A stretch of 64,000 nucleotides of DNA. It comes from Actinomyces massiliensis 4401292. Its GTDB lineage: Bacteria > Actinomycetota > Actinomycetes > Actinomycetales > Actinomycetaceae. Made by a program: the position numbers and the translations under genes. Shown in pieces: positions 47,575 to 63,405 of the stretch (the stretch's first letter is position 1; every line of letters starts with the position of its first letter). Below the pieces are notes generated by a model. That model saw only the letters and a list, made by a program, of their open reading frames with translations, ran no database searches and had not been told where the DNA came from. The stretch covers positions 1,861,789-1,925,788 of the forward strand of contig NZ_JH711481.1 in NCBI RefSeq assembly GCF_000269805.1, read 5' to 3'.

Positions 47575-48901
47575 CGAGCGGCGTCAGTCCTCCGATGAGG
47601 GATTGGTTGGTGCGGCTTGAGTGCGTGGTCGGATGTGCGTCTCCCATGTGTCTTCTCGATCGACCGATGGCGAGAGCGGAGAAGGCGATCTTCGTGGCAT
47701 TGGCGGTTGCTGCAGCCGTCGTCCCCGCCCAGAGCGCCGGCGCGTTCGCCAAATAGCATACGAGAATGCATACCACTGTGAAGGTCAGTGACCATGCGAC
47801 CACCAGGAATTGATTACGGTACTCGTTGAGCGCCAGCAGACCTGCATTGAGCACGTAGGTGCCGGGGTCGAGAATGGCGGCTGCGGTCAGGGCCGCGATG
47901 AGCCAGGGCGAGAATGTGAAACTGTGGCCGTACACGGATTCAAGCAGGAATGGCCCGATGAGGAATGCCAGGGTCGAGAGCAGAATGCCGACCAGGCCGA
48001 TTCGGATAGTGGTCTGTTTGAGGCGGTGCAGCAGCGGTTGGAATCCTTGATCTGAGGCAATGGATTGGTACTCTCCGATGAACATCGAGTTGAGTGACGA
48101 ACCCAGGAGCGATCCGAGCGTCAGAATGTATGCCGCAGCTGCGAATCGGCCGACGTCGGCGTTATCGCCCAGGGCGGCGACGGTCCAGGTCGGGATATTC
48201 GTGATGATGACGGCCAGCATCTGGGCGAATGCGATGGGAGCGGAGATCCTGAGCAGGGCTCGGGCCGATTCGGATGTTCTTCCGGCGGCGGGCTCCGATG
48301 CGGGGCGGCGCTTCAGAACGATGATCGCCAGGATCATCGTGACCGTCGATCCCACTGATGAGCCGAAGACGATCATGGATGCGTTGGTGCACAGCGCCGC
48401 CATCAGGACGGACATGAGTGCGGAGACAAGGCCGTTGGCGATCATGATCAGGCCGTACGGAGCAAGGGCCTGCTGGCGTTGCAGAGGTCCGTAGAGGAGA
48501 TCGGTGATGCCGTCGGTCACTTTCATGACCAGGACCGCCCACAGCATCGTCGGGTCGGCCTGCGTCCATGCGCCGATCCCGATAAGCAGGAGAGCCGCCG
48601 CACCCAGAAGAAGTATCCGGAGTTTCAGATAGAGGGCGAAGGAGTAGTTCCGCCTCAGGGTGATGAGGGTGTTCCTGAGCCCCCAGCCGGCCGCGATGAA
48701 CAATGGGGTCGAGTAGGCCAGAAGCGCCGCGAACACTCCGGATTGCGCAACGCTTCCGTAGCGCGCGAGCAGCCAGAAGACGAACCATTGCGATATCGGT
48801 GCGATGAAGGTTCCGGCCAGAACGAGGGAGCGTGCTCCTGCTTTGGAGCTCATCGCTCCACCCGGTGAGTCTGCTTCTGCTGCTCCGCCATTCCCGGGCA
48901 T
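47567..48901 (-). CDS. Polysaccharide flippase (Wzx-like, MOP superfamily)
   Basis: 444 residues with about twelve transmembrane helices and short loops. Segments such as FAAAAYILTLGSLLGSSLNSMFIGEY and AALTAAAILDPGTYVLNAGLLAL fit the MOP exporter family. It would flip undecaprenyl-linked repeat units outward. The start is uncertain: ATG 48901 has AGAGG six bases upstream, while an ATG at 48853 has a Shine-Dalgarno sequence too close. Confidence 0.82.
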   Translation of the reverse strand: MPGNGGAAEADSPGGAMSSKAGARSLVLAGTFIAPISQWFVFWLLARYGSVAQSGVFAALLAYSTPLFIAAGWGLRNTLITLRRNYSFALYLKLRILLLGAAALLLIGIGAWTQADPTMLWAVLVMKVTDGITDLLYGPLQRQQALAPYGLIMIANGLVSALMSVLMAALCTNASMIVFGSSVGSTVTMILAIIVLKRRPASEPAAGRTSESARALLRISAPIAFAQMLAVIITNIPTWTVAALGDNADVGRFAAAAYILTLGSLLGSSLNSMFIGEYQSIASDQGFQPLLHRLKQTTIRIGLVGILLSTLAFLIGPFLLESVYGHSFTFSPWLIAALTAAAILDPGTYVLNAGLLALNEYRNQFLVVAWSLTFTVVCILVCYLANAPALWAGTTAAATANATKIAFSALAIGRSRRHMGDAHPTTHSSRTNQSLIGGLTPLDD

Positions 48902-49016
48902 CTACTGCCTCTACGGGGGGAGCGAGTCACCGCGCGTCTCCTGTGCGCCGGTGCGGCGTCGAGGAATGGGGCGCTCCAGAGGCGGAAAAGCGGGCCGCTG
49001 CAGGGAGAGGCGGTCG

Positions 49017-50087
49017 TCATGACAGGGTCCATTCGTAAGGAATCAGGTCTCCGTAGTGGGTGAGACTGATGAAGAAGTATGTGATGATGCCGAGCCAGAG
49101 CACTATATGTCGAGCCCGGGATCCATGAGCGAGCAGGAAGCAGATGAACATCGGCAGAGACGCCACGAAGTACAGCGTGACTCTGTCGAGAACGGCGAGT
49201 TGGAGCCCCACCACCTGTGCGCCTAGACCGAGGGAGTAGAAGCGGGTGGCGCAGCGGAGCTCGTTGGGCAGCTCTGTGGACTGGAGGAACCAGACGACCA
49301 TGAGCATGAGGGCGAGGTGGATGAGGCGGCCCCGCCCGGACCCCATGTTCTGGTCCAGGTAGGAGCCGTACTTGTCGCCGACCAGGTCCGTCAGGAAGGT
49401 CGCGAGTGCGGTGCTGATGAGCAGGAGCGCAAGAAAAACTCCCCCGGACAGCAGCACAATACGGATATTGAATGTATTGCGCTGCTGGAAACGGCGCGAC
49501 AGGATAAAAGCCGGCAGGACGATCAGGGTTGAGCTGTGGATGAGGGCGGCTGTGAGGAGGAATACCCATCCGAAACGGTGGCCCCGCAGGATGAGTGCCA
49601 CGCCGAAGACGAATATCGATATCGCCATCGCCTGCCTCATGCCGTTGAACTGGAAGAGGTAGAGGCCGGAAACGGCGTAGGCGCTGATCGCCGGGAGCAT
49701 CTTGGGGGAGATCATCCGGATCGCCTCGTACTGCAGGCCGTTGGTGACCAGGGCCGTGATGGCCAGGAACCAGTGCGTGCTCAGGCCGAAAGACCTCCAG
49801 ATGAACTCCCACAGGGCGTATCCCGGTTCCACGATCGCCTGTTGCAGGGTATTGCTCCATGAGCTGGAGTCGATGGTGATGTTGTACATCGCCACGTACA
49901 TCACCGTGTCGGTTCCCACATGCCAGGCGCGAAAACCCGGAGCGGCCGCAAGAACGACGATGCAGGCGCAATCGATGCCGCGCTGCACCATGGAGATCCT
50001 GCGCGGCTGTCCGTCTGTGGTGTCGAGAGCAGCCCGGAACAGCTGAAGGAGAATCGTGGCGACAATGGTCGCGAGATAGATGATCAC
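49017..50087 (-). CDS. EpsG-like polysaccharide polymerase (Wzy-type)
   Basis: 356 residues, about ten transmembrane helices. GTDTVMYVAMYN, EPGYALWEFIWRSFG and FNGMRQAMAISIFVFG follow the EpsG family pattern (N-terminal GxDxxxY, EPGY, FNxxRQ), members of which act as repeat-unit polymerases. GTG start at 50087 with AGAGGA upstream. First gene of the minus-strand operon polymerase-flippase-GT-GT4-GT2. Confidence 0.85.
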   Translation of the reverse strand: MIIYLATIVATILLQLFRAALDTTDGQPRRISMVQRGIDCACIVVLAAAPGFRAWHVGTDTVMYVAMYNITIDSSSWSNTLQQAIVEPGYALWEFIWRSFGLSTHWFLAITALVTNGLQYEAIRMISPKMLPAISAYAVSGLYLFQFNGMRQAMAISIFVFGVALILRGHRFGWVFLLTAALIHSSTLIVLPAFILSRRFQQRNTFNIRIVLLSGGVFLALLLISTALATFLTDLVGDKYGSYLDQNMGSGRGRLIHLALMLMVVWFLQSTELPNELRCATRFYSLGLGAQVVGLQLAVLDRVTLYFVASLPMFICFLLAHGSRARHIVLWLGIITYFFISLTHYGDLIPYEWTLS

Positions 50088-50568: not shown

Positions 50569-51714
50569 CTACGCCTTCCCCCGATGCCCGATCCCCGCCA
50601 GCGCTGTGCTGCGCCCCAGAGATCGCAGGTCTGCGGCGCGCCGCGGCTGGGAGTCGCTACCCGCAGGGAGTCCATGGATCTTCGCCTCCCATTCGGCCGG
50701 GACCGCGGCGGCGCCGAGGTAGCTGCCCGCCACGGCGCCGGCGATTGCGGCCACGGTGTCCGAGTCGTCGCTGGAACGCACTGCCCGGGCCAGAATGAGC
50801 CGCATCCATGTGCTGGCCAGCTCTGGCCGACTGGCGCGGAGGGCGACGCGAGCGTTCGGAGCCGCATGATTGGCGGCGATGAAGGACAGACAGGCCTTCC
50901 CCAGGGCGTCCACGGTGAACCCGTCGGTGGGAGGGAGTCCGGACCAGTTCCAGTTCCCGGGGTCGTAGGTGCCGCCGTCGAAGAGGTCGTGCCAGTAGCG
51001 CCGTCGTTCCTGACTCGTCTGCCCGAGGGCGGCGAGGGCGGCGAGCGGATTGGCTCCGTTGAAGGGCATGTTCTCCCAAGCCGGTGAGGTGACATTAGCG
51101 CGGATCATCTCGGCCTGAATGACGCAGGAATCGGCCGCCAGGGGATCGGCGTGCGTGAGCGAAGCCACGGCGCGTGCCGCTGCTGCCGTGGTGCGCGGGT
51201 CGTGCAGGCGGGTCAGTCCCACGATGCCGTTGCGCATGAGCGCGCCGTTTCCAGCGCTGCGTCCGCCCGAGGTCTCGTGGTAGTCCAGCGCAGCCTGACG
51301 CATCCTCTCCGAGACGCCGGGCTCGCCGCGGTGATGGGCGACGGCTTTCAGGATCGCGCGCGTCTGAATGCCGATGTCGGAGGCCGTCGAGGCGTACCAG
51401 TCGATGAAGCCGTCCGCGATGGCGTCCAGAGCCGGCCTGCTCGTCAAGTCCGCACCGGTAGCCGCTACCCGGGCGACGATCACTGACATCTGGGTGTCGT
51501 CGCTCCACTCTCCGGGTGCGTAGGGGCCCAGTCCTCCGCCTTGCATGAAGCCCTCGCTCGCCTCGGCTCCGCAGCCGGAGTCAGTGGGGGAGTGTCCGAG
51601 TTCCCAGGGCACGCCGAGTGCGTCGCCGCAGGCCTGAACCAGGAGGACGCCTTCGGCGCGGTCGAGCTGAGAGGGGGACAGCGCCGCGAGAGCACCTGTA
51701 GTTCCTGTGGTCAT
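50569..51714 (-). CDS. ADP-ribosylglycohydrolase family protein
   Basis: 381 residues. DraG/ARH fold with its metal and substrate motifs: GVLLVQACGDALGVPWE, GEWSDDTQMSVIVA (two Asp ligands), GRSAGNGALMRNGIVGL, and SSDDSDTVAAIAGAVAGSYLGA as the C-terminal Asp/Thr metal motif. The family removes ADP-ribose from proteins or nucleic acids; targets are unknown here. The last motif has SDDSDT where GGDTDT is common. The ATG at 51714 has no ribosome site but a -10 box TAGGCT six bases upstream, so the mRNA is probably leaderless. It stands between two exopolysaccharide loci. Confidence 0.88.
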   Translation of the reverse strand: MTTGTTGALAALSPSQLDRAEGVLLVQACGDALGVPWELGHSPTDSGCGAEASEGFMQGGGLGPYAPGEWSDDTQMSVIVARVAATGADLTSRPALDAIADGFIDWYASTASDIGIQTRAILKAVAHHRGEPGVSERMRQAALDYHETSGGRSAGNGALMRNGIVGLTRLHDPRTTAAAARAVASLTHADPLAADSCVIQAEMIRANVTSPAWENMPFNGANPLAALAALGQTSQERRRYWHDLFDGGTYDPGNWNWSGLPPTDGFTVDALGKACLSFIAANHAAPNARVALRASRPELASTWMRLILARAVRSSDDSDTVAAIAGAVAGSYLGAAAVPAEWEAKIHGLPAGSDSQPRRAADLRSLGRSTALAGIGHRGKA

Positions 51715-51726: not shown

Positions 51727-52040
51727 CGTCTCAGTCTCACTGCTGTTCACTACTTCACTACTGCGCCCAACCGTGCTCAACCGTGCTCAACTGCGGCTCA
51801 GCGGGGCCCTGACCGCTCGGCTGGTCGGAGTCCCCTGCTGAGCAGCTGAACATCGCCTGTGAGCTAACCCATGGAGCTGGCGTGACCTTTTCGTTACATT
51901 TGACGCATGCTTCCAGTTAGCATGAAGATGTATGGCGTCCGGCTGTTCTGAATACGGCCTGGCGTCCCTGTGCGAGAGTCACGGCGTCCTAACTTGGCGC
52001 GCCGCTCTCCGTTTATCACCGAGTGCCGATTGGCAACAAC
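51727..52040 (+). other. Promoter region of the synthase-type exopolysaccharide operon
   Basis: Gene-free. It has an exact 10-bp duplication CCGTGCTCAA (51771-51790, third copy degenerate), a TTGACG -35-like box near 51899 and an inverted repeat CATGCT-N7-AGCATG at 51906-51924. A good -10 at the right distance from TTGACG was not found. The AT-richer stretch around 51885-51935 is the likely promoter. Confidence 0.45.
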
Positions 52041-52334
52041 ATGTATATCCCTGAATTCATCGACGCAGGACGCGTGCTGTCAGGCTCCGCCCAACAGCAC
52101 CTCGATCTGATCCCCCGGCTGCTTCTGGACGCCGCTGGGGTGGCTTTCGTGGTCATCATCCTGCTCTTCATCGGGTTGAACCTCTACGGCGTCATCTACC
52201 GCGCGCGCCCTCTGCGCGGTGCTGCCTACCGGCCGCGCCATGCACGGCCCCGGCCCCTTCGCGGAGCCGCTTCCTACGATCAGCGGCGCTTCCTGGGCGC
52301 CGGCCCTCACCACCTGACTGCGGGGAAATCATGA
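52041..52334 (+). CDS. Small membrane protein preceding the processive GT2
   Basis: About 97 residues with one strong transmembrane helix (about 32-55, AAGVAFVVIILLFIGLNLYGV) and a basic cytoplasmic tail with two RPLRGAA repeats. No family recognised. Its place directly before, and ATGA overlap with, a processive GT2 recalls IcaD/PgaD, the small accessory subunit of HexNAc polymer synthases. Start uncertain: ATG 52041 or GTG 52023, neither with a good ribosome site. Confidence 0.65.
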   Translation: MYIPEFIDAGRVLSGSAQQHLDLIPRLLLDAAGVAFVVIILLFIGLNLYGVIYRARPLRGAAYRPRHARPRPLRGAASYDQRRFLGAGPHHLTAGKS

Positions 52335-53767
52335 ACACCCTCTTCCTGATCGATCTGATCGATCGCATCGCCTGGTTCGGTGCATTGGGAATGGTCATCG
52401 TGGCTCTCGTCTACGCCCTGACCCTCCTCGTCATCTCCCGACGCCGGCCCCGTCGCTCAGCCGACGAACAGCAAGTCGCCTTCGATCCCGGTATGCACAT
52501 AATCGTTCTCATGCCGTGCCTCAACGAGGCCGAGGTCATCGCCGCCTCTGTGCAGCGCCTGCTCGACATCAACGATCCCGGGCTGCATGTCATGGTCGTC
52601 GATGACGGCAGCGATGACGGAACCGGTGATGTCGTCGAGTCGATCGGGGATCCTCGGGCCGAAGTACTGCGACGCATTCTGCCCAACGCCCGCAAGGGCA
52701 AGGGTGAGGCCCTCAACAACGCCCTCGCCGTCGTCCGTCAGCGCTTCTCCGGCTTCGATCCGAACTCGATCATCATCGGCGTGGTCGATGCCGATGGTCG
52801 CCTGGACCCCCATGCGATCGCCGAAGCGCGCCGGGCGTTCGCCTCGGCGGAGGTCGGCGCCGTGCAGATGGGGGTGCGGATCAACAACCGCTTCAACTCG
52901 CTGCTGGCCCGCATGCAGGACATGGAGTTCGTCGTATTCACCTCTGTCTTCCAAGAGGGGCGCAGGCATCTGGGCAGTGTCGGGATGGGCGGGAACGCCC
53001 AGTTCGCCCGCCTGTCCGCGCTCAACGCCCTGGGGCGCAAGCCGTGGACGCGCTCGCTCACCGAGGACTTCGATCTGGGAGTGCGCCTCAACGGCGCCGG
53101 CTGGACCAATGAGTACTGGGGCAGGGCTGCTGTTCATCAGCAGGGCGTGACCAATAGCCGTCGCCTGCTGCGTCAGCGCACCCGATGGTTTCAGGGCAAT
53201 CTCCAATCTGCTCACCTCCTGGGGAAAGTCGCGCGTGAGCAGCGCGGACTGTCCCGGGCGGACTCCTTGTGGCAGATCCTCACGCCCTCGGTGCTCCTGG
53301 CGGGATCCTTCCTGGCCGCCTCGTTCCTGTCCGCTCTCGCTCTGACGATCGTCGCCGCAGTGCGCGGTGTGCCTCAGTCCTGGCTCTGGGTTCTGAGCGC
53401 CTACCTTCTGGCGTTCGGCCCGGGCCTCATCTTCGGGTTGCTGTACTGGCGCGTTGAGCGCAGCGAGGGGCTGGGTCTGCTGCGCACCTTCGTATATTCG
53501 CACCTGTTCGTCCTCTATGGGCTCATGCCCTGCCTCATAGGCTGGCGAGCACTGGCTCGACAGGTCACCGGCCGCACCGGTTGGGCCAAGACGGCGCGCG
53601 AGACCGAGTCGGAGGAGGAGCAGCCCGCTGTGCTGTCCGCTCTGCCTGGGGCCGCGGCCGGCGTGCCGGGATCCGTTCCGGCTCTGCCGGGGGCGCAGCC
53701 TCTGCCCGGCCCGGTCGACACCCTGGTTCCGGCGTGGCGGACGGCAGTCGTGAAGGCGGCCGGATGA
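52331..53767 (+). CDS. Processive glycosyltransferase family 2 (polysaccharide synthase)
   Basis: 478 residues. One N-terminal membrane helix (about 13-35), a GT-A domain with VVDDGSDDGTGD, IIGVVDADGRLDP (DxD-like), SLTEDFDLGVRL (ED acceptor motif) and the processivity motif QRTRW, then about four C-terminal helices. This is the architecture of membrane synthases that polymerise and extrude one polymer (cellulose, hyaluronan, PNAG types). No PilZ domain, so no c-di-GMP control is visible. A Pro/Ala/Gly-rich tail follows. ATGA overlaps on both sides couple it to the small membrane protein and the beta-sandwich protein. Confidence 0.9.
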   Translation: MNTLFLIDLIDRIAWFGALGMVIVALVYALTLLVISRRRPRRSADEQQVAFDPGMHIIVLMPCLNEAEVIAASVQRLLDINDPGLHVMVVDDGSDDGTGDVVESIGDPRAEVLRRILPNARKGKGEALNNALAVVRQRFSGFDPNSIIIGVVDADGRLDPHAIAEARRAFASAEVGAVQMGVRINNRFNSLLARMQDMEFVVFTSVFQEGRRHLGSVGMGGNAQFARLSALNALGRKPWTRSLTEDFDLGVRLNGAGWTNEYWGRAAVHQQGVTNSRRLLRQRTRWFQGNLQSAHLLGKVAREQRGLSRADSLWQILTPSVLLAGSFLAASFLSALALTIVAAVRGVPQSWLWVLSAYLLAFGPGLIFGLLYWRVERSEGLGLLRTFVYSHLFVLYGLMPCLIGWRALARQVTGRTGWAKTARETESEEEQPAVLSALPGAAAGVPGSVPALPGAQPLPGPVDTLVPAWRTAVVKAAG

Positions 53768-54456
53768 GAGGGGTGAGCAAGTGGGTACTCCGTCTGACTC
53801 GACGACGCATCGTCATCGCGGTTCTTGTTGGCGCGCTCGTTCTGAGTGGAGCCGTCGCCACTGTTGTCTACGCCATGACTGATCGCTGCGAGTGGACGAC
53901 GGTCCACCACGGGTATGGAAAGGTCTCCTGCACCCGGGGGACCGTGCGTCTGAGTCCGAAGACATCCACCAGCTCCGACGAGACGCACGCCGCTCTTGCG
54001 ACGGTTGACGGCGTCAATATCGAGGAGAACGCCACGCAGACGATCTCGGCCACTATGCGCACCGACACCCAGCTGCGCACAGGGGATGATCCCAATCCCT
54101 GGGAGGTCGCCTGGTTCTTGTGGAACTACACGGATGACCAGCACTTCTACGCGGTCGTCCTCAAACCCAACGGCTGGGAGATCAGCAAGGAGGATCCGGC
54201 TTACCCCGGGGCTCAGCGCTTTCTCGCCTCGGGGGACTCTCCCACCTTCCCGATCGGCAGCGCCTTCGACATCACGGTGACGATCACCACTGCAGAGGAT
54301 GCCGTGACCATGACGGTGAGTGTGGGCGGGGCTGAACTCGCGACCGTCACCGATCGCGAGAGTCCGTACCCGTCCGGGGCCGTTGCGGCCTACACAGAGG
54401 ATGCCACCATCACCGTCGGCCCGGTCGCGGTGGAGTCCGGGCCCGTGCCCAACTGA
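53764..54456 (+). CDS. Membrane-anchored beta-sandwich protein (lectin/DUF1080-like fold)
   Basis: 230 residues: basic N-terminus, one transmembrane or uncleaved signal helix (about 16-38), then an extracellular domain rich in beta strands. The segment WEVAWFLWNYTDDQHFYAVVL, followed by a GWEI...AFDITVTI pattern, is typical of concanavalin-like/DUF1080 domains that bind or cleave glycans. No catalytic residues could be assigned. The ATG overlaps the synthase stop, so it is made with the synthase and may bind the nascent polymer. Confidence 0.7.
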   Translation: MRGVSKWVLRLTRRRIVIAVLVGALVLSGAVATVVYAMTDRCEWTTVHHGYGKVSCTRGTVRLSPKTSTSSDETHAALATVDGVNIEENATQTISATMRTDTQLRTGDDPNPWEVAWFLWNYTDDQHFYAVVLKPNGWEISKEDPAYPGAQRFLASGDSPTFPIGSAFDITVTITTAEDAVTMTVSVGGAELATVTDRESPYPSGAVAAYTEDATITVGPVAVESGPVPN

Positions 54457-54489
54457 GAGTAACAACCGACTACAAGAAGAGATGATCCC

Positions 54490-55662
54490 ATGACTGCGCC
54501 TGACACGTCTCTGACCGCCATGCTCATCTACGGCACTCGTCCCGAGGCCATTAAGATGGCGCCCCTCGTGAGGGCAATGAGAGACGATGATCGATTCCGG
54601 CCTATTGTCGTGGTGACCGGCCAGCACCGCGAGATGCTTGATCAGGTCAACGACTTCTTCGGCATCACTCCCGATGTTGATCTCGACATCCATGCTCCCG
54701 GACAGTCCCTGACTCAGGTGACCACGAGGACGCTCACGGGCGTGGGGGAGCAGATCGAGGCGCTTTCGCCCGATGTCATCCTCGCCCAGGGGGACACCAC
54801 CTCCGCTTTCGCAGCAGGGCTGGCCGCGTTCTACCACGAGGTGCCCGTCGCGCACGTCGAGGCCGGCCTGCGCACCGGCTCCATCGCCTCGCCCTTCCCG
54901 GAGGAGGCCAATCGACGCCTGCTCGGCCAGATCACCTCGCTGCACTTGTGCCCGACCGGGCGCAGTCGGGACAATCTTCTGCGGGAGGCTTTCGATCCGA
55001 CCACAATCCTGGTCACTGGCAACACGGTGATCGACGCCCTTCTCGATGCGGTCACCCGACCGGTGCCGCCGAGTGATCCGGCGCTGGCGGAGGCGCTGTC
55101 CGAACCGGACCGACGGGTCGTCCTGGTCACTGCGCACCGGCGGGAGTCGTGGGGCGAGCCGATGGAGCGCATAGGGCGTGCCATCGCGCGTCTGGCGCAG
55201 AGTCACCCGGACACCCTCTTCGTCCTGCCGGCTCATCGCAACCCGCGTGTGCGCGAGGCGCTCCTGCCGAATATCGCCGGCTGTGACAACGTCGTGATCA
55301 CGGAGCCCCTCGAGTACGGCCAGTTCTGCACCCTCATGAATCGGGCGGACGTCGTGCTCACCGATTCCGGCGGCGTTCAGGAGGAGGCGCCCGCCCTGTC
55401 CAAACCGGTCCTGGTCATGCGTGAGAACACTGAGCGCCCCGAGGCGATCGCTTTCGGAGTCGCTCGTCTTGTGGGCACCGACGAGGAACGGATCGTGACG
55501 GAGGTCTCCCGTCTCTTGGACGATGCGGAGGCCTACGGCGCCATGGCCAGGGCGGCCAATCCGTATGGCGACGGCCGAGCCGCTGCCCGTATCCTGGCCG
55601 CGCTGGCGGCGGCCTTCGGCCGTGGCGAGCGTCTGCCCGATTTCGATCCGGCCGGTCGCTGA
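54490..55662 (+). CDS. wecB: UDP-N-acetylglucosamine 2-epimerase (non-hydrolysing)
   Basis: 390 residues. Interconverts UDP-GlcNAc and UDP-ManNAc in the cytoplasm. Motifs: YGTRPEAIKMAPL, GDTTSAFAAGLAAF, HVEAGLRTG, PFPEEANRRLLGQ, VLVTAHRRESWG and VLTDSGGVQEEAPAL, all typical. The substrate-binding His and Glu residues of the family are present. ATG at 54490, AAGAGATG upstream. Placed 33 bp after the beta-sandwich gene, it implies that ManNAc, or a sugar made from it, enters the polymer; it could also feed wall teichoic-acid-like linkage units. Confidence 0.93.
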   Translation: MTAPDTSLTAMLIYGTRPEAIKMAPLVRAMRDDDRFRPIVVVTGQHREMLDQVNDFFGITPDVDLDIHAPGQSLTQVTTRTLTGVGEQIEALSPDVILAQGDTTSAFAAGLAAFYHEVPVAHVEAGLRTGSIASPFPEEANRRLLGQITSLHLCPTGRSRDNLLREAFDPTTILVTGNTVIDALLDAVTRPVPPSDPALAEALSEPDRRVVLVTAHRRESWGEPMERIGRAIARLAQSHPDTLFVLPAHRNPRVREALLPNIAGCDNVVITEPLEYGQFCTLMNRADVVLTDSGGVQEEAPALSKPVLVMRENTERPEAIAFGVARLVGTDEERIVTEVSRLLDDAEAYGAMARAANPYGDGRAAARILAALAAAFGRGERLPDFDPAGR

Positions 55663-55715
55663 GCTCCCCTGCAACTGCGCGCGGACGGACGACAGGCGGG
55701 CCCGTTCGCTCCGGC

Positions 55716-55721
55716 TAGCAT
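55716..55721 (+). promoter_or_regulatory. Leaderless-type -10 element of hisD
   Basis: TAGCAT, six bases before the GTG at 55728; no ribosome site. It gives hisD its own promoter inside the exopolysaccharide locus. Confidence 0.5.
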
Positions 55722-55727
55722 GTCCGT

Positions 55728-57083
55728 GTGCTGACTCGAATCGACCTGCGTGACCAGGATCTGTCCGCCCGCGAGCTCGCCGAGGCCCTGCCTCGCGCCC
55801 GCCTGGACGTCGCCACCGCCCTGGCCGCGGTGACGCCCGTCATCGAGGATGTGCGGGTTCGAGGCGCTGCTGCTGTGCGTGATGCTGCTGAGCGCTTCGA
55901 CGCCGTGCGTCCGGAGCATCTGCGCGTACCCGCAGCGGCCATCAAGGCGGCTCTGGCCGACCTTGACCCGGCGGTGCGTGAGGGCCTCGAGCTGTGCATT
56001 GCGCACAACCGCGCCGGTCATGCCGCCCAGCTCCCCGCCGAGGCCGTGACCGAGGTCGTCCCGGGAGGACGGATCACGCAGCGGTGGATCCCGGTGCGCC
56101 GAGTCGGGTTGTATGTCCCCGGAGGGCTCGCGGTCTACCCGAGCTCGGTCGTCATGAACGCGGTGGCCGCGCAGGTCGCCGGTGTTGAGCAGATCGCGCT
56201 CGCCTCTCCGCCGCAGGCCGCTCACCATGGTCTGCCCCACCCCACGATCCTGGCGGCGTGCGCTCTGCTGGAGGTCACGGAGGTCTACGCGGCCGGAGGG
56301 GCCCAGGCGATCGCCATGCTGGCCTATGGCATCCAGGCGGATGAGGCTGTTGATCGAGCCGATCTCGCGGGGGCAGCAGGTTCCGGAGGCATGCTGTGCG
56401 AGCCAGTCGACGTCGTGACAGGACCCGGAAATATCTATGTGGCGGCAGCAAAACGAGCTGTGCGCGGTGTGGTCGGTATAGATGCGGAGGCCGGGCCCAC
56501 TGAGATCGCCATCCTCGCCGACGAGGGCGCGGACCCCGAGTATGCGGCCGCCGATCTGCTTTCCCAGGCCGAGCACGATCCGAATGCCGGGAGTGTGCTG
56601 ATCACGGATTCTCCGGTCCTGGCCGACGCCGTCGATGCGGCGCTGGTGCGCCGTCTGGGGCAGACCAAGCATGCCGAGCGGGCCGGTACCGCCCTGAGCG
56701 GGAAGCAGTCCGGGATCGTCCTGGTGCGCGACCTCGAGCAGGGCATCGCCGTCGCCGACGCCTATGCGGCCGAGCACCTGGAGATCCATACGGCTCGTGC
56801 GCCTGAGGTCGCGCGTCGCATCCGCAGTGCTGGGGCGATCTTCGTCGGCCCCTACAGCCCCGTGCCGTTGGGGGACTATCTGGCGGGCTCCAACCATGTG
56901 CTGCCCACTGGTGGCACGGCGCGCTTCAGTTCGGGGTTGAGTGTGATGGCCTATCTCAAGGCAGTCCAACTCGTCCACTATGACGCCGCGGCGCTGAAGG
57001 CGCTGAGTGAACCGCTCGCAGCCCTGGCGGACTGCGAAGACCTGCCGGCACACGCTGAGGCTGCTCGAGCTCGTCAGGACTGA
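55728..57083 (+). CDS. hisD: Histidinol dehydrogenase
   Basis: 451 residues. Last two steps of histidine synthesis, histidinol to histidine, NAD- and zinc-dependent. Motifs: VGLYVPGGLAVYPSSVVMNAV, GPGNIYVAAAKR, DLLSQAEHDP (zinc ligands Gln and His), the catalytic Glu-His in YAAEHLEIH, PVPLGDYLAGSNHVLPTGG (Asp ligand) and the C-terminal His in LPAHAEAARAR. All key residues are intact, so this is a real HisD rather than a recruited relative. No other his genes follow; they must lie elsewhere. Confidence 0.95.
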   Translation: MLTRIDLRDQDLSARELAEALPRARLDVATALAAVTPVIEDVRVRGAAAVRDAAERFDAVRPEHLRVPAAAIKAALADLDPAVREGLELCIAHNRAGHAAQLPAEAVTEVVPGGRITQRWIPVRRVGLYVPGGLAVYPSSVVMNAVAAQVAGVEQIALASPPQAAHHGLPHPTILAACALLEVTEVYAAGGAQAIAMLAYGIQADEAVDRADLAGAAGSGGMLCEPVDVVTGPGNIYVAAAKRAVRGVVGIDAEAGPTEIAILADEGADPEYAAADLLSQAEHDPNAGSVLITDSPVLADAVDAALVRRLGQTKHAERAGTALSGKQSGIVLVRDLEQGIAVADAYAAEHLEIHTARAPEVARRIRSAGAIFVGPYSPVPLGDYLAGSNHVLPTGGTARFSSGLSVMAYLKAVQLVHYDAAALKALSEPLAALADCEDLPAHAEAARARQD

Positions 57084-57450
57084 ATGAGCCGTATGAGCTG
57101 AATTATTGGATTCTCTCCTGTTGGGAGGCCGGTAGATCCGTTGCGGACGCCGGCCCAGAAGTGTGCTCGCCGCGTTGCCCGATTTCATTGTGAGTCAGCT
57201 ATGTGTGCGCTGTGACACATACAAGAGATGTCGTGCATGATAGCGTCGTTATCGGATCGTGACCTTGGGTGTATTGACGTTCACTTCTAAGGCTGTTTGT
57301 CCCTGTATGCGCAGTCTCTGAACGCACACGTTTCTCGATCGTCCGGCCACTGTGCCGGCACCTGGGACGCAGCAACTCATGAAGAGGACGAGCTGACATC
57401 GGAGTGCAGGATCCTTCACAACTGATAGCGAACCCTGATGGAGGTACACC
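57084..57450 (+). other. 367-bp leader region of the DUF2334 gene
   Basis: Gene-free. Contains a short hairpin TATGTGT-N8-ACACATA (57200-57221), a second small hairpin CCGGC-N6-GCCGG (57343-57358) and a TTGACG -35-like box near 57275. It may be a long 5' leader; I could not match it to a known riboswitch. Confidence 0.4.
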
Positions 57451-59391
57451 ATGTCCCTTCCTTTCCCTGACAGATCATGGACTCGACGCAAGTTCCCCAT
57501 GCTGGCGATGTGCATTGCGGCTCTCGCCCTGGCGGTGCCGGGCGCACGCGCGATGCCTGCAGCCGTGCCCGTCGTCGCCGAGCCGGCGCCGGCGGCGGCA
57601 CCCGCAGATCTCGCCGGCGATGTCGCCGATGCGGCCGCTGTCGGAGTGCCGGCTCCCGACGCCGCTAAGCAGGAGGCCCTGCCTCTCGCTCTCGATCCGG
57701 ACGCGCAGGTGAACCTCAATGAGCCTGCCGATCAAGCCGGCGCCCCCGCACAGCCGCGGGACCTCGCTGCACAGGCGCCCGAGGCGCCCGCTAGTGCCCG
57801 CAGCTTCTCCAGCCAGGCCAACGGCCCGGCCAATACCCTGGTCGTGTTCGACACCGGGGGCGAATGGGGCAGGCTCGGCGAGTACTACGCGCTGGAGGCC
57901 GGCATGCTCGCCTCTCACAGCGGGGCCGTGACAACCCTGCCGGTGAACGACTATGTTGCCGGCCTCGCGGGGCGGTACACAGCGGTGGTGTACGTCGGAT
58001 CCACCTATGACGGTGAGTTGCCCCAGGCGTTCCGTGACGATGTGCTGACCGGGAACGTGCCCGTGCTGTGGATGGGCTTCAATATCTGGCAGCTGGCCTC
58101 GACCCAGGCCGATCGGAACGCCTTCACCGCCCGTTACGGGTGGGATGCTGCGACGTCCTACATCGACGCGACCGACACGGTGGCGAAGGTGAGCTACAAC
58201 GGTCAGGATCTGACCCGCAACACCTCGAACGCCGCTGGGATTCTCTCGCCTCACATCACCGACGCCGCGGCGGTCAACGTGCTCGGGCAGGCTCGCTGCT
58301 CGGGGGCCGATGGTGCGGAGACGACCTGCGCCTCCGTGTCGCAGTCGTCCGGCACGACTTTCCCGTGGGCGGTGCAGTCGGGCAACCTGACCTACATCGG
58401 TGAGATTCCCATGACCTACATGAGCGAATCTGATCGTTATCTGGCGGCTGCCGACATCATTCTCGACACTCTCCAACCAGGGGCGGCTGCTACGCGCACC
58501 GCGGCCGTCCGCATTGAGGACGTCAATCCGGACACCGATCCCGAGCAGTTGCGCGCCCAGGTCGATTACCTCATCGGTGAGCAGGTCCCCTTCCAGTTGG
58601 CCGTTGTGCCCATCTATACCAATCCTCTGGGTGTCGATAACAACGGGACTCCCGAGGGGCCAGTCGCGCTGGCCGACAGGCCTGAGCTCGTCGACGTGCT
58701 CAAGCACGCGGTTGATAACGGAGGGACCCTGGTTCAGCACGGCACGACTCACCAGTACGGAGAGCTCAACAACCCGTATTCGGCCGTGAGCACAGACGAT
58801 TTCGAGTTCGTCCGCTCCTGGTGCACAGCCGCCCCTGAGCGAACCGCCGAACCCGTGCCATGCACGAAGACGACCTACGTGCAGATCGGTGGAGAACTGC
58901 CGAACATGTCGGCCGATGAGACCGCCGACCGAGTGGCCCGCGGACGCGACCTCTTCGCCCAGGCGGGCCTGCCCACTCCAACGATCTTCGAGACCCCCCA
59001 CTACGCGGCCACTGACGATGCGTACCAAGGGATATCGCGGGTCTACTCCACTCGCTACGAGCGCTCTCTGTTCTACGCGGGCACGCTCACCGGCCAGCGC
59101 GGCGGTCCCTACGATTATGTCGGGCAGTTCTTCCCCTACAAAGTCAGCGACCCCTACGGGATGAACATCCTGCCGGAGAATCTGGGCAACTACGAGCCCG
59201 AGGCCTACAGCCAGCATCCGGCTCGCACCGCGCAGGACATCGTCGCCGCGGCGCAGGCGAATACGGTGCTCACCCATGCCAACGCGTCCTTCTTCTTCCA
59301 CCCCTTCTATGACATCAATGCATTGAAGGATACTGTCGCCGGTATCAAGAGGGCCGGATACACCTTTGTGCCGGCGACCGACATGGGTTGA
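57451..59391 (+). CDS. Secreted DUF2334 polysaccharide deacetylase-like protein
   Basis: 646 residues. Signal peptide (about 1-34), an Ala/Pro-rich linker, then a flavodoxin-like N-terminal region and a NodB-like catalytic domain: VRIEDVNPDTD (metal-binding Asp, about residue 354), QHGTTHQYG (H430 and H434, the His-x3-His pair) and FETPHYAATD. DUF2334 members are predicted metal-dependent deacetylases acting on extracellular polysaccharides. GGAGG seven bases before ATG. A 17-bp hairpin separates it from the glycosidase gene. Likely removes N-acetyl groups from the polymer made upstream. Confidence 0.85.
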   Translation: MSLPFPDRSWTRRKFPMLAMCIAALALAVPGARAMPAAVPVVAEPAPAAAPADLAGDVADAAAVGVPAPDAAKQEALPLALDPDAQVNLNEPADQAGAPAQPRDLAAQAPEAPASARSFSSQANGPANTLVVFDTGGEWGRLGEYYALEAGMLASHSGAVTTLPVNDYVAGLAGRYTAVVYVGSTYDGELPQAFRDDVLTGNVPVLWMGFNIWQLASTQADRNAFTARYGWDAATSYIDATDTVAKVSYNGQDLTRNTSNAAGILSPHITDAAAVNVLGQARCSGADGAETTCASVSQSSGTTFPWAVQSGNLTYIGEIPMTYMSESDRYLAAADIILDTLQPGAAATRTAAVRIEDVNPDTDPEQLRAQVDYLIGEQVPFQLAVVPIYTNPLGVDNNGTPEGPVALADRPELVDVLKHAVDNGGTLVQHGTTHQYGELNNPYSAVSTDDFEFVRSWCTAAPERTAEPVPCTKTTYVQIGGELPNMSADETADRVARGRDLFAQAGLPTPTIFETPHYAATDDAYQGISRVYSTRYERSLFYAGTLTGQRGGPYDYVGQFFPYKVSDPYGMNILPENLGNYEPEAYSQHPARTAQDIVAAAQANTVLTHANASFFFHPFYDINALKDTVAGIKRAGYTFVPATDMG

Positions 59392-59399
59392 GCGAGCGT

Positions 59400-59441
59400 C
59401 CGTCCGGGTTGGCGAGGGCACGGGCTCGCCAACCCGGACGG
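59400..59441 (+). terminator. Intercistronic 17-bp hairpin (partial terminator or processing site)
   Basis: A perfect stem (59400-59416 with 59425-59441, core CCGGGTTGGCGAG / CTCGCCAACCCGG) and 8-base loop GGCACGGG. No U-run follows; instead the ribosome site of the next gene starts two bases later. Probably sets the ratio of deacetylase to glycosidase rather than ending transcription. Confidence 0.7.
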
Positions 59442-59453
59442 GCAGGAGGAGAC

Positions 59454-60977
59454 ATGACGCACCATGCGGGCGATCTCAGCAGGCGCCATGTCCTGGCCTG
59501 GACGACCAGCGCCGCGGCTGTGGCCGCCACAGCCACGGTGGCAACGGTCATGGCCGCCTGCACGGGCGGGGAGAGACCCGACTCCGATGAAGAGGCGGGC
59601 GTCGCGCGCCTCGACGTCGTCGACTCCACCGGCGCTCTGCTCGATTTCGATGGCCTGCGCGAGATCCAGTCCAACGGCGCGGGGGAGGACGGCTGGGACG
59701 ACCAGCTCTTGGACCCCGATACCTTGGAGGTTCTGGTCCACGCGCCCCTGTACGAGGATGACGAGTCCAGCGCCGCAGTCGACCTGCCCGACGGTGGTGC
59801 TGCGACGCTGACGATGTCATGGCCAACCAGCCACGGCTACTCCGCCCTCCTGGCGGACATCCCCGGTCCGGGTCGCTACTCCCTGGCCGAGCTCGCCGCC
59901 CGTGCCCTGCACGAGCGTCAGCAGTCACGACTCGACGCCGTCGATTCCGTCGATTCTGCGGCATCCGCTGAGGTGCGGGCTTTGCGGGATGATGCCGCTG
60001 CCGCCTTGGCTGCATGTTCCGCGGCCTCCGACCCGGCGCAGCGCGCGGCCCGCGGGGCCGAGGCGCTGGAGGCGGCGGCCGGCGCTCAGCTCGCCCTCGA
60101 CGAGGCGTGCCAGGCTCTCGCGCCGGCCGACGCGGTCATCGGCGTCACCTTCACCCAGCCGCCTGATACTGCTCAGATCTCGCAAGCCGTCGGCATCGGC
60201 GACGGACAGCGGCAGATGGCGGCCAGGATCGTTGTTGATGACGCCTCGGACCCCGCTGAGATGGATGCGTGGCGCCAAACCATCACGGCTCTGCACGCCG
60301 CCGGTGCGCTGGCCCTGGTTCAGGTCTGCGACTCCCAGACGATGACGAGTTTCAATGCCCATGCCTGGGATGAGCGAGTGGCGGCGCTGGTCGCCGGGCT
60401 GCCCGAGGCGGATGCCTGGGAGGTCGGCAACGAGCTGGGCGGATCGTGGCTCGGGGATGACGCTGTCGACAAGACTCTGCGGGCAGCTCGAGCGGTGCGC
60501 GACGATCCGGCGACGGCCGCCACCATCGTGGTGACCCTCTACTACCAACTCGGTCAGGAGTCGGCCGAGAACTCCGTTCTGACGTGGGCGCGCAATGAAC
60601 TCCCCTCTGAACTGCTCGATGTCACCGACGTGCTCGGCCTGTCCGTCTACCCTCAATTGCATCCACTGGGCACGGGGGCTGACCGTGTCCTGTCCGCCCT
60701 CGCCGAGGCCTTTCCAGATCAGCGCGTGGCCCTGACCGAGCTCGGCTACGGTGCTGAGGATCTCGACTCCGGTCCCTGGTGGTTCGGCTCCCAGCAGGAC
60801 ACGGCCTCCGCTCGTACCGCCACCGCCCGCCATCTGACCAGTGCGGCCCTGGGGCGCGAGAGGTCGTGGGGCGCCCCCTTCTGGTGGTACTACCTTCAGG
60901 ATGAGAAGCCCGGGGCGCCGGGAGGCCCTGTGGGCGACGTGCTCAGCGATGTCGCCACCGGCTCGCAGGGCCAGTAG
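59454..60977 (+). CDS. Clan GH-A glycoside hydrolase lipoprotein (Tat/lipobox signal)
   Basis: 507 residues. Twin-arginine-like signal SRRHVLAW, hydrophobic core and lipobox VMAAC (Cys near residue 36): an exported lipoprotein. A coiled/helical insert (about 140-220) precedes a TIM barrel with the two clan GH-A catalytic sites: Asn-Glu in WEVGNELGG (E327, acid/base) and Glu in VALTELGYG (E429, nucleophile), plus APFWWYYLQD at the last strand. The exact GH family is unknown. ATG at 59454 with AGGAGG upstream. With the DUF2334 protein it may be a two-protein counterpart of PgaB. Confidence 0.8.
   Translation: MTHHAGDLSRRHVLAWTTSAAAVAATATVATVMAACTGGERPDSDEEAGVARLDVVDSTGALLDFDGLREIQSNGAGEDGWDDQLLDPDTLEVLVHAPLYEDDESSAAVDLPDGGAATLTMSWPTSHGYSALLADIPGPGRYSLAELAARALHERQQSRLDAVDSVDSAASAEVRALRDDAAAALAACSAASDPAQRAARGAEALEAAAGAQLALDEACQALAPADAVIGVTFTQPPDTAQISQAVGIGDGQRQMAARIVVDDASDPAEMDAWRQTITALHAAGALALVQVCDSQTMTSFNAHAWDERVAALVAGLPEADAWEVGNELGGSWLGDDAVDKTLRAARAVRDDPATAATIVVTLYYQLGQESAENSVLTWARNELPSELLDVTDVLGLSVYPQLHPLGTGADRVLSALAEAFPDQRVALTELGYGAEDLDSGPWWFGSQQDTASARTATARHLTSAALGRERSWGAPFWWYYLQDEKPGAPGGPVGDVLSDVATGSQGQ
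59934..59960 (+). repeat. 9-bp tandem repeat in the glycosidase gene
   Basis: GACGCCGTC, GATTCCGTC, GATTCTGCG encode Asp-Ala-Val-Asp-Ser-Val-Asp-Ser-Ala in the helical insert. Units closely resemble those at 50504-50548. Confidence 0.7.
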
Positions 60978-60999: not shown

Positions 61000-63405
61000 T
61001 CAGCGCTGAGCCAGCACGAAGGGATGCACCGCCGTCGCCCCGGCCCGCCGCAGTATCGAGGCGGCGACCGTGAGCGTCCACCCCGAGTTGGTCCAGTCGT
61101 CGACGAGGATCACCCGCGCCCCGTGGAGTCGGGCCCGGGCGTCATCCGACCACTCGTCCAGGGTCAGGGAGCGCGCCACCTCGGCGAGCCGGTGGGCGCT
61201 GCCGACGTCGTGACGGCCCGGATCGCCGCGAACTCCGATTATTCCCAAGGGCATGGCGGCGAGGTGATGGGCGAGTGCCCGACCTATGTGGCGCACGAGT
61301 CGGGGGCGGCGCCGCGACTCGATGAGAACGATGCACAGCGGTAGGCCGTCCGGCTGTGAGGACGAGTCTGCAGGGATGGTTCTGGCATCTTCGTCATTCT
61401 CTCCCGTCGTGTCCTCAATGAGGGCCGCCAGGCGTTCGGCTACCTGAAGTACCGGGGCCCGCAGTGCGTTGGGAACCTCGGCATCAGAGCCCGGCTCGAT
61501 CAGCTCGCGCAGTGCCCCGGCCACGCCCAGGCCGTCCATCCTCCCCACGGCCATGCCCGTTCCGGCGCGCTCGGACTCCTTGATCCGTCCGCGTAGAGCG
61601 GGCAGTCCGAGTCTGTCCATCCCGGTGGGCCACTGCCGGCGGGGTGTCAGGGCGACCCCCACCTGGGACAGTGAGGCGCGGGCCGCTCTCAATTCCTCCT
61701 CCTGCGGCTCTCGGGCCAATGTGAGACCGCCGCACAGGTCGCACGCCCCGCAGCGCCAGCCTGCGCGCATCGTCGGGTCGTCGAGGGCCGAGCGCAGGAA
61801 GGCCATCCGGCACTCGGGCGCCTCCAGCGACTCATAGCGGAGCATCGCCTCCTGCTCGTGGACTCGAGCGGCCTCGACGCGCGCGTACCGCTCGGCATCG
61901 TAGACCCAGGGCCGGCCAGTGGACGTCCAGCCTCCCCGCACCCGCCGCACCGCGCCGTCGACGTCCAGGACCTTGAGCATGGACTCCAGTCGTGTGCGGC
62001 GCAGACTCGTGACGGTCTCCAGCACATTCGTGCTCAACGATCCCCCGCCCTCCTCGGCGGCGTCATCGAGAGCCGCCAGGACCTCACGGACCGCGGGCTC
62101 GGGCGGGAATCCCTGAGCACCGAACCAGTCCCAGATGGAGCGGTCCTCGGCTCCCGGCAGTAGCACCACCTCGGCGCGATCGACGCCCCGACCGGCTCGT
62201 CCGACCTGCTGGTAGTAGGACACCGGTGAGCTCGGCGCCCCCATATGGACCACGAATGCCAAGTCGGGCTTGTCGAAACCCATGCCCAGGGCCGAGGTCG
62301 CCACAAGCGCCTTGACTCGGTTCTCCTTGAGGTCCTCCTCAAGGCGCTCCCGTTCCGCCGCGTCGGTCTGCCCGGTGTAGACGGCCGCTTTCACACCCGC
62401 GTCGCGTAGACGTTCGCTCACCTCCCCGGCTGCTGAGACCGTCAGGCAGTACACGATTCCCGAACCGGGAGCGTCGCGAAGATATGCGGTCAGCCATGCC
62501 AGGCGCGACGCGGCATCGGGCAGGCGGCGCACGCCCAGGTGAAGGGAGTCCCGCTCCAAGGACCCTCTCATGACGAGGACCTGTGCGTCCGGGGGCTCCG
62601 ATGCGTTACCGGCGAGCTGCTCGGCGACGTCGGCCGTGACACGGGCGTTGGCCGTCGCCGTGGTGGCCAGGACCGGCGTGCGCGGGGGCAGATCCGCCAG
62701 CAGGGTGCGGATCCGCCGATAGTCGGGACGGAAATCATGGCCCCAGTCCGATATGCAGTGCGCTTCGTCGATGACCACCAGGCCGGCGTCAGCGGCCAGG
62801 TGGGGGAGGACCTCGTCCCGGAAGGCCGGGTTGTTGAGCCGTTCGGGGGACACCAGTAGGACGTCGACGGCGCCGTCGCGAACCTGGGCCTCGATCTCCT
62901 GCCACTGCGCGGCGTTGGCGGAGTTTATGGTGACGGCATTGATGCCCGCGCGGCGGGCGGCTGAGACCTGGTCGCGCATGAGGGCCAGCAGCGGGGAGAT
63001 GATGACCGTCGGTCCGGATGCGGGGCCGGGCTGCCTGGCGGGCGGCGGAGTGGGCGGTGCCCATGCGCCTCCCGCAGCACCTTCGGCGCTGTGCGCCCCG
63101 GCACCTGAGTCGAACCGCTCGGGTCCCCAGCCCTCGCGCAGCAGGACTGTCGCCACGAAGTAGACGGCAGACTTCCCCCAACCGGTGCGCTGGACCACCA
63201 GGGCTCGACGGCGCTGGACCACCAGGGCGCGGATGGCTCGCCACTGGTCCTCCCGCAGGTGGGCATCGCTGCGCCCGACGAGCTCGCGCAGGACCGCCTC
63301 GGCGCGCTCGCGGAGCGGAGAAGCGGAGGACATCTCGAGGGGGTCGTCGATTTCGTCGATGCCGTTGATGTCATCAGGGGGAGTGTCGGCGGCGGGCGGG
63401 CTCAT
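61000..63405 (-). CDS. RecQ-family helicase fused to a phosphoribosyltransferase-like domain
   Basis: 801 residues. Superfamily 2 helicase core: LREDQWRAIRALV, Walker A RTGWGKSAVYF (about 73-83), VIDEAHCISDWGHDFRPDYRRI, TATAN, and motif VI QQVGRAGRG. A Pro/Gly/Ala-rich insert (about 98-130) splits motifs I and Ia. A four-Cys zinc cluster (CRMAFL..CGACDLCGG) follows the winged-helix region. The C-terminal ~130 residues form a ComF-like phosphoribosyltransferase domain, with the PRPP loop VILVDDWTNSG at 765-775. Probably a DNA repair helicase. The ATG at 63405 lacks a ribosome site but has TAGCGT six bases upstream. Divergent from marR. Confidence 0.9.
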   Translation of the reverse strand: MSPPAADTPPDDINGIDEIDDPLEMSSASPLRERAEAVLRELVGRSDAHLREDQWRAIRALVVQRRRALVVQRTGWGKSAVYFVATVLLREGWGPERFDSGAGAHSAEGAAGGAWAPPTPPPARQPGPASGPTVIISPLLALMRDQVSAARRAGINAVTINSANAAQWQEIEAQVRDGAVDVLLVSPERLNNPAFRDEVLPHLAADAGLVVIDEAHCISDWGHDFRPDYRRIRTLLADLPPRTPVLATTATANARVTADVAEQLAGNASEPPDAQVLVMRGSLERDSLHLGVRRLPDAASRLAWLTAYLRDAPGSGIVYCLTVSAAGEVSERLRDAGVKAAVYTGQTDAAERERLEEDLKENRVKALVATSALGMGFDKPDLAFVVHMGAPSSPVSYYQQVGRAGRGVDRAEVVLLPGAEDRSIWDWFGAQGFPPEPAVREVLAALDDAAEEGGGSLSTNVLETVTSLRRTRLESMLKVLDVDGAVRRVRGGWTSTGRPWVYDAERYARVEAARVHEQEAMLRYESLEAPECRMAFLRSALDDPTMRAGWRCGACDLCGGLTLAREPQEEELRAARASLSQVGVALTPRRQWPTGMDRLGLPALRGRIKESERAGTGMAVGRMDGLGVAGALRELIEPGSDAEVPNALRAPVLQVAERLAALIEDTTGENDEDARTIPADSSSQPDGLPLCIVLIESRRRPRLVRHIGRALAHHLAAMPLGIIGVRGDPGRHDVGSAHRLAEVARSLTLDEWSDDARARLHGARVILVDDWTNSGWTLTVAASILRRAGATAVHPFVLAQR

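Follow-up and report, generated by a model that had tools for sequence, protein, structure and literature searches.

A candidate WecB-linked, synthase-dependent exopolysaccharide locus of Actinomycetota

Comparison with described exopolysaccharide systems

A 2020 survey names five synthase-dependent exopolysaccharides (PMC7112194), and papers from 2021 propose the Nfr/NGR system as a further one (PMC8669472, PMC8669469). In that proposal, E. coli NfrB and WecB make the receptor of phage N4, a polymer based on N-acetylmannosamine (ManNAc), with NfrB drawing on UDP-ManNAc made by WecB (PMC8669472, PMC8669469). Here, we analyse a 64,000-nt stretch of Actinomyces massiliensis 4401292 (NZ_JH711481.1, positions 1,861,789-1,925,788, forward strand; genome size 3.37 Mb), referred to as the window. 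According to open reading frame (ORF) calls and family searches of the window, seven plus-strand genes span positions 52023-60977. In 5' to 3' order, they encode a small transmembrane (TM) protein, a GT2 glycosyltransferase, a β-sandwich protein, a WecB-type epimerase, the histidinol dehydrogenase HisD, a DUF2334 protein and a GH-A-like protein. On balance, we regard it as probable that these genes, hisD excepted, constitute an exopolysaccharide system of Actinomycetota that is synthase-dependent and does without a cyclic di-GMP (c-di-GMP) module, its product probably containing ManNAc and being partly deacetylated. The locus looks like yet another system of this kind and occurs in Actinomyces, in corynebacteria and streptomycetes, and in actinobacteria of the Frankia type. 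Among the titles and abstract openings listed by capped literature searches, no account of the gene set was recognised, which is weak evidence of absence; this conserved polymer locus is apparently undescribed so far.

The logic of the locus is akin to that of Pga, Pel and Nfr. Yet for Ica/Pga, Pel, Nfr and Listeria Pss alike, it lacks at least one of the defining features examined. With Nfr/NGR (E. coli NfrB, NfrA, YbcH and WecB) it would share a processive, WecB-dependent GT2 and a ManNAc polymer, and the window's β-sandwich family is co-located with NfrB/WecB homologues in Gemmatimonas and Methylocystis. However, the window GT2 is remote from NfrB proteins (16-27 bits) and did not classify as NfrB-type, and it carries no MshEN domain. 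Nor was an MshEN, NfrA or DUF4434 (YbcH) protein found among the seven genes; DUF2334, the small subunit and the GH-A protein stand there instead, in a genome where a genome-wide search found no GGDEF domain (control positive in 8/14). An earlier reading of this DNA from the sequence alone (hereafter the sequence-only reading) had proposed a system without PilZ or c-di-GMP module. As to GGDEF, this holds for the whole genome; as to PilZ, it holds for the seven genes to which that search was confined.

In the Ica/Pga systems, which make poly-N-acetylglucosamine (PNAG), IcaD and PgaD are small membrane partners of the synthase. The locus resembles these systems in a GT2 nearer to PgaC than to E. 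coli NfrB, a small membrane protein, a putative extracellular deacetylase and a putative hydrolase (the latter annotated in PgaB). It differs in that its GT2 reaches 90.6 bits against the PgaC_IcaA model TIGR03937, far under the cut-off of 422.3 bits and outside the PgaC/IcaA equivalog. Its putative deacetylase is of the DUF2334 type, with no PgaB/IcaB model match among the seven genes, and it has wecB and a CBM66-like protein but no IcaC-type protein in the same set. The best NCBIfam model for the GT2, the XrtP-associated glycosyltransferase NF053846 (281 bits), likewise stayed under its cut-off (520), and no exosortase lies among the seven genes.

The product of the Listeria Pss system (pssA-E) is a ManNAc polymer. 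That system is described as including PssD, which is BcsB-like, and PssE, a receptor with GGDEF, and as requiring c-di-GMP (PMC4125290). The present locus is alike as a Gram-positive, GT2-based synthase-dependent system, but gave no PssD- or PssE-type match among its seven genes—BcsB having been looked for there only, GGDEF in the entire genome. Gram-positive Pel loci (pelDEADAFG) cluster an epimerase, a deacetylase and a hydrolase around the synthase (PMC7112168), an arrangement that the present locus shares with its putative enzymes. Yet, no Pel model (PelD/E/F/G, PelA-type) was among the matches of the seven genes, which the search covered, and the window's epimerase is a WecB, whereas Pel's is of the UDP-glucose-4-epimerase type. 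In Streptomyces MatAB, MatB joins a GT2 and a CE4 domain in one protein (PMC5972031). For Actinomyces oris, mannose makes up 77.5% of the neutral sugars of its exopolysaccharide, a figure that decides nothing here because the table, as available, is shown without amino sugars (PMC3557718).

Conservation of the gene set

Besides the window genome, 22 of 36 congeners harbour a GT2 match (E 1e-30), and the β-sandwich gene occurs in the same 22. Within the 18-20 kb fetched around each of these loci, GT2, β-sandwich and wecB are consecutive in that order in 22/22 cases. DUF2334 follows in 21 of the 22, and is found in none of the 14 GT2-negative congeners. The wecB orthologue (72-90% identity) shows the same split (22/22 versus 0/14); the GT2-negative congeners have either a copy of 58-60% identity (two genomes), only a copy of ~34-37% (eight) or no epimerase (four). 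The GH-A gene is present in 22/22 GT2-positive and 5/14 GT2-negative congeners. These counts suggest that GT2, β-sandwich, wecB and DUF2334 were gained or lost jointly, with GH-A more loosely attached. The nearest named loci are those of A. israelii and A. gerencseriae (GT2 80 and 84% identity, β-sandwich 70-75%). Outside the genus, GT2 matches were obtained in 3/22 genomes of the same order, one of which (G050) has GT2, β-sandwich and wecB on a single 3.95-kb contig.

Scanning named genomes with a β-sandwich alignment (A1) yielded 89 relatives, of which 80 were kept; genes were counted within the fetched stretch, and the window's own record may be absent from this collection. As the β-sandwich was the query, its presence in 80/80 loci is by construction. 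GT2 and DUF2334 accompany it in 58 loci, 51 of which also contain wecB, while four loci have GT2 but lack DUF2334 (two of them on contigs <4.4 kb). The four-gene set occurs in 12 named genera: Actinomyces, Actinobaculum, Peptidiphaga, Kocuria, Pseudarthrobacter, Arthrobacter, Cryobacterium, Corynebacterium, Streptomyces, Actinomadura, Parafrankia and Nonomuraea. Lineages differ in the order of these genes, which argues for a functional bond as opposed to shared descent of a single stretch. Kocuria rosea carries two tandem GT2-β-sandwich-wecB-DUF2334 copies (L112:2380-13712), and the DUF2334 of Tessaracoccus and of one Kocuria (L104, L113) matches in several separate pieces.

To avoid the query bias, we drew 394 genomes evenly from the class, the window's own included. 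The β-sandwich was found in 19 of them and a PF10096 (DUF2334) match (E 1e-10) in 52. The latter were bimodal, being either strong and full-length (E 4e-45 or better; 18 genomes) or weak (E 2e-24 or worse), the cut having been placed after this gap was visible. In 15/394 genomes, among them that of the window, a β-sandwich and a strong DUF2334 gene share a contig within ~6 kb, where 0.87 would be expected under independence; we attach no probability to this excess because the genomes are related. The four remaining β-sandwich genomes lack a strong DUF2334 match, one having a partial match on another contig. At the level of the order, a search with alignment A2 found the β-sandwich in 7/297 genomes, indicating a patchy distribution.

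In the window, the genes are spaced, in order, by a 4-bp overlap, another 4-bp overlap, 33 bp, 65 bp, 367 bp and a 4-bp overlap. The sequence-only reading had listed six genes as mostly overlapping or closely spaced, having overlooked hisD (55728-57083) between epimerase and deacetylase. Its description stands within the small gene-GT2-β-sandwich-wecB run and within the DUF2334-GH-A pair, but fails across hisD and the 367-bp gap. HisD matches TIGR00069 at 443 bits (cut-off 243.8) and is the sole match in the genome, which marks it as the housekeeping enzyme. Among the 22 congeners, hisD precedes GT2 in 19; L075 and L076 carry it behind GH-A, and L060 (A. gerencseriae) carries it between wecB and GH-A. 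The window and A. israelii (L085) both have hisD between wecB and DUF2334. Given these varying positions, hisD has moved relative to the cluster, and it is a passenger outside the system. We had also considered hisD as a UDP-ManNAc-oxidising paralogue substituting for WecC, a candidate rejected in view of its single genomic copy and wandering position. A promoter and terminator scan was uninformative, with two promoter-like sites (0.8 expected by chance; one at 57212-57241, ahead of DUF2334) and two terminator-like sites (2.6 expected).

The conservation in relatives excludes a chance assembly of the gene set. That the genes are mere neighbours without a common function is hardly credible: the intrusion of hisD, the separate DUF2334-GH-A block of the window and the loss of DUF2334 in A. 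gerencseriae would fit such a view, but adjacency and co-occurrence across the 12 genera in differing orders, as well as the co-occurrence in the even draw, speak against it.

Synthase, sugar supply and competing explanations

The GT2 gene (52331-53767, 478 aa), assigned by Pfam/NCBIfam, motifs and structure model, encodes a membrane protein with the D, DxD, TED and QxxRW motifs, here DDGSDD, DAD, TED and QRTRW (D91D92, D153AD155, TE245D246, Q282RTRW286). The motif acids are invariant in 40/40 aligned rows, as is QRxRW; the first residue of TED is T in 33 rows, S in six and A in one. Fold matches of the GT2 structure model (pLDDT 87.3) are headed by hyaluronan synthases (ranks 1-13; E 3e-15, query-normalised TM score up to 0.64) and cellulose synthases (ranks 14-16). 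The predicted fold thus sides with the synthases, not with soluble or glycolipid transferases, PcManGT (below) being a caveat.

Directly upstream lies the gene of the small one-TM protein, the putative synthase partner (52023-52334; 103 aa from GTG 52023, alternative ATG at 52041). A comparable ORF is common at the named loci. We tested for an ORF of 60-180 aa that contains a strongly hydrophobic segment and whose end falls between -300 and +60 bp relative to the start of GT2; 49 of 60 loci were positive (62 loci have a GT2, two of them with too little upstream sequence). The same test returned 0/61 for wecB, 0/58 for DUF2334, 0/79 for the β-sandwich, 0/17 for GH-A and 30/1240 at random positions. 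Its size and hydrophobicity limits were chosen after inspecting examples, and the ORFs are grouped by position, size and hydrophobicity, their sequences being divergent.

The epimerase (54490-55662, 390 aa) is a non-hydrolysing UDP-GlcNAc 2-epimerase of the WecB type by its match to TIGR00236 (454 bits, cut-off 210). We infer that it supplies the GT2 with sugar. The locus could instead be PNAG-like, with an IcaA/PgaC-related GT2 that polymerises GlcNAc and with UDP-ManNAc from WecB going to another use or into occasional residues. The GT2 profile (A3) scored 88.4 bits for E. coli PgaC against 16.4 for NfrB and 26.9 for a second NfrB protein (NfrB_L147), a further NfrB homologue (L109) giving no reported match; of the two E. 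coli synthases compared, PgaC is hence the closer by sequence. PgaC_IcaA is also the second NCBIfam model for the GT2, and wecB is unseen near the cluster in 7/58 loci. On the other hand, the score under that model stays far below its cut-off, DUF2334 bears no detectable PgaB similarity, no PgaD- or NodB-type family match above cut-off occurred among the seven genes, and the wecB orthologue tracks GT2 across the congeners. We therefore consider a PNAG-like locus rather unlikely, though it deserves to be kept in mind.

Several findings weigh against our proposal of a ManNAc-containing, synthase-made polymer. In the host genome, hisD and the 367-bp gap divide the genes into two blocks, small protein-GT2-β-sandwich-wecB and DUF2334-GH-A. 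A. gerencseriae has no DUF2334, wecB lies outside the fetched stretch in 7/58 named loci, and the Cryobacterium wecB is fragmented (L121:10592-11134)—which, like the split DUF2334 genes of Tessaracoccus and Kocuria, may reflect either decay or sequencing error. Nine of the 80 β-sandwich loci contain neither synthase. In the same order, but in other families, G046 and G048 have GT2 relatives (39-40% identity) without β-sandwich or DUF2334 nearby, G048 having a wecB-like gene ~2-3 kb away on the opposite strand. The small TM gene went undetected by our test in 11/60 loci, including all six Nonomuraea. DUF2334 shows no detectable similarity to E. coli PgaB (A5 against PgaB, probability 0.2) and has no credible relative of solved structure, so that its putative activity rests on motif and family. 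Among the five GT2-negative congeners that keep the GH-A gene, it adjoins hisD in four; given this persistence, GH-A may act on something else. Finally, the mannosyltransferase PcManGT is the best PDB sequence match of the GT2 (3.6e-13) and, at fold rank 17, attains a target-normalised TM score of 0.66, as compared to ≤0.62 for the synthases. With such a fit, fold alone is no proof of processivity.

The PcManGT match by sequence and fold would suit a non-processive transferase that builds a ManNAc/GlcNAc-containing wall or lipid-linked glycan, with DUF2334 and GH-A remodelling the wall. This is distinctly improbable in our view, since hyaluronan synthases head the fold matches, QRxRW is present throughout the alignment, a small TM partner lies upstream of GT2, and no flippase or lipid-carrier transferase is found among the seven genes. 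A Wzx/Wzy-like pair does lie nearby on the opposite strand; among the 22 fetched congener stretches, it was seen in that of A. gerencseriae only.

A synthase-made polymer thus remains our preferred explanation. The sequence-only reading had proposed a synthase-dependent exopolysaccharide system comprising a small one-TM protein, a processive GT2 with QRTRW, a membrane-anchored β-sandwich, a UDP-GlcNAc 2-epimerase, a DUF2334 protein with an HxxxH pair and a GH-A lipoprotein. ORF calls, motifs and models bear out the first three, and TIGR00236 and PF10096 the next two; for the last, both presumed catalytic glutamates are in place, whereas the lipoprotein part comes from a weak signal match and a lipobox assigned by eye. 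It had further named two findings that would overturn it, and neither came about: relatives do keep the gene set together (22/36 congeners, 12 named genera), and the GT2 structure prediction is matched best by processive synthases, not by a non-polymerising glycolipid transferase, subject to the caution over PcManGT. The system as such is well supported by conservation and the synthase-like GT2 model, and that reading's overall interpretation is partly supported.

The analysis establishes which genes are present, how far they are conserved, which motifs and folds they have, and that this genome is free of GGDEF domains; we infer the identity of the sugar and the steps of polymerisation, binding, deacetylation and hydrolysis. 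WecB would convert UDP-GlcNAc to UDP-ManNAc. The small membrane protein and GT2 would form a membrane synthase that polymerises and extrudes an N-acetylhexosamine chain, of which ManNAc would probably be all or part. The CBM66-like protein, anchored in the membrane and facing the extracytoplasmic side, may bind the chain as it emerges, whether to guide it, to tether it or to act as a capping lectin. Outside the cell, DUF2334 would remove some of the N-acetyl groups, rendering the polymer cationic, and the GH-A-type hydrolase, whose place is taken by a GH113 protein in Streptomyces and Actinomadura, may cleave or release it. If so, the locus would open to genetics a polymer of the biofilm or cell surface that has apparently not been studied.

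The CBM66-like protein, processing enzymes and flanking genes

The β-sandwich protein (53764-54456, 230 aa) had no Pfam/NCBIfam match at E 0.1 and no PDB sequence match better than 0.08; four of five relatives scanned gave matches to PF06439 (3keto-disac_hyd) below the cut-off (E 4e-5 to 8e-4). Its structure model (pLDDT 92.9) comprises a single N-terminal helix (residues 7-39) and a concanavalin-type sandwich. Foldseek placed CBM66 domains at ranks 1-4 (E 5e-9 to 6e-8, target-normalised TM scores 0.74-0.77, 13-14% identity), the further ranks shown being other lectin-type or enzyme sandwiches with target-normalised TM scores of ≤0.50. The model thus presents the protein as a membrane-anchored CBM66-like domain, in support of the lectin-like partner posited by the sequence-only reading. 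In Peregrinibacteria and Peribacteria, a CBM66-like domain is fused to SLH domains (L136:3883-5385; L148:9155-10537), neither synthase being present within the fetched stretches of these loci; by this fusion, the domain resembles a binding module.

The protein might also be a polysaccharide lyase or hydrolase in place of a lectin. Its concanavalin-type fold carries many invariant polar residues, an alginate lyase is among the fold matches (rank 13, TM 0.42), and the PF06439 matches point to a family named after a 3-keto-disaccharide hydrolase. The fit to CBM66 is clearly better, however, and the union with SLH domains would be expected of a binding module, which makes an enzyme unlikely.

Nine of the 80 β-sandwich loci have an NfrB homologue on the fetched stretch (E 1.9e-76 or better in the count of loci; 9.5e-104 to 7.4e-77 by phmmer), and seven of the nine have wecB as well. 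They belong to Methylocystis, to Gemmatimonas and relatives and to one Elusimicrobia; the distance from β-sandwich to NfrB is ~1-5 kb in eight and ~9 kb on the Elusimicrobia contig. In Methylocystis, the β-sandwich is accompanied by wecB, NfrB and a TPR protein that matches NfrA_C weakly. Two NfrB homologues beside wecB were scanned (L109:15639-17096; L147:12162-13703) and, unlike E. coli NfrB, showed no detectable MshEN. A kinship of the β-sandwich with YbcH was considered and dismissed: YbcH is a DUF4434 protein and, like E. coli NfrA and NfrB, did not match the β-sandwich profile.

Since two WecB-linked synthases of distant relationship both have the CBM66-like domain as a companion, the sugar may be the simplest factor that they have in common. 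We tentatively suggest—as a possibility somewhat short of even—that the loci represent an unnamed class of ManNAc-polymer machines, widespread in Actinomycetota and devoid of a c-di-GMP module, and that a CBM66-like membrane subunit recognising the ManNAc polymer is common to the GT2 and NfrB systems. Were this true, the domain could flag ManNAc polymers in genomes of different phyla and, used as a lectin, detect them there, and it would allow the sugar of Nfr-type polymers to be probed.

The putative polysaccharide deacetylase (57451-59391, 646 aa), predicted to be secreted, matches PF10096 with an E value of 2.9e-44 and has the motifs ED, HGTTH, PHY and FFFHP. Residues E356, D357, H430, H434, H517 and H617 are invariant in 23/23 rows; such invariance would be expected of a metal-dependent deacetylase, in which D357, H430 and H434 may form an Asp-His-His metal site as in CE4 deacetylases. 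Residues 406-435 weakly match an NCBIfam deacetylase model (NF053788; E 0.042, 13.3 bits, cut-off 280). Descent from PgaB was considered for this protein as well and found no support in the comparison given above. A role at these loci would assign a function to this branch of DUF2334.

The last gene (59388-60977, 529 aa) encodes a probable lipoprotein of the twin-arginine translocation (TAT) type with a GH-A-like C-terminal domain, a putative hydrolase. N348-E349 and E451 are invariant in 12/12 rows; the TAT signal match is weak (E 0.015, 15.6 bits versus a cut-off of 22.7) and the lipobox was assigned by eye, not by a family model. An attempt at assigning a GH family returned weak GH53 matches only (E 0.1; E 0.59). 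In 10/10 four-gene loci of Streptomyces and Actinomadura, a GH113-type protein sits beside DUF2334, at the place that GH-A takes in Actinomyces (assignment from one member scanned, E 1.6e-57; example locus L129:3516-4547, minus strand).

The genes flanking the cluster lie on the minus strand. The pair just upstream (47567-50087), assigned by eye from sequence as a Wzx-like flippase and a Wzy-like polymerase, is possibly a second polysaccharide locus. Between both polysaccharide loci sits a gene for an ADP-ribosylglycohydrolase (50569-51714; PF03747, E 1.2e-39). Downstream, at 61000-63405, follows a helicase of the RecQ family whose C-terminal stretch is phosphoribosyltransferase-like (PF00156, E 0.00022, under the cut-off), a relative of which was found in 20 of the 22 fetched congener stretches.

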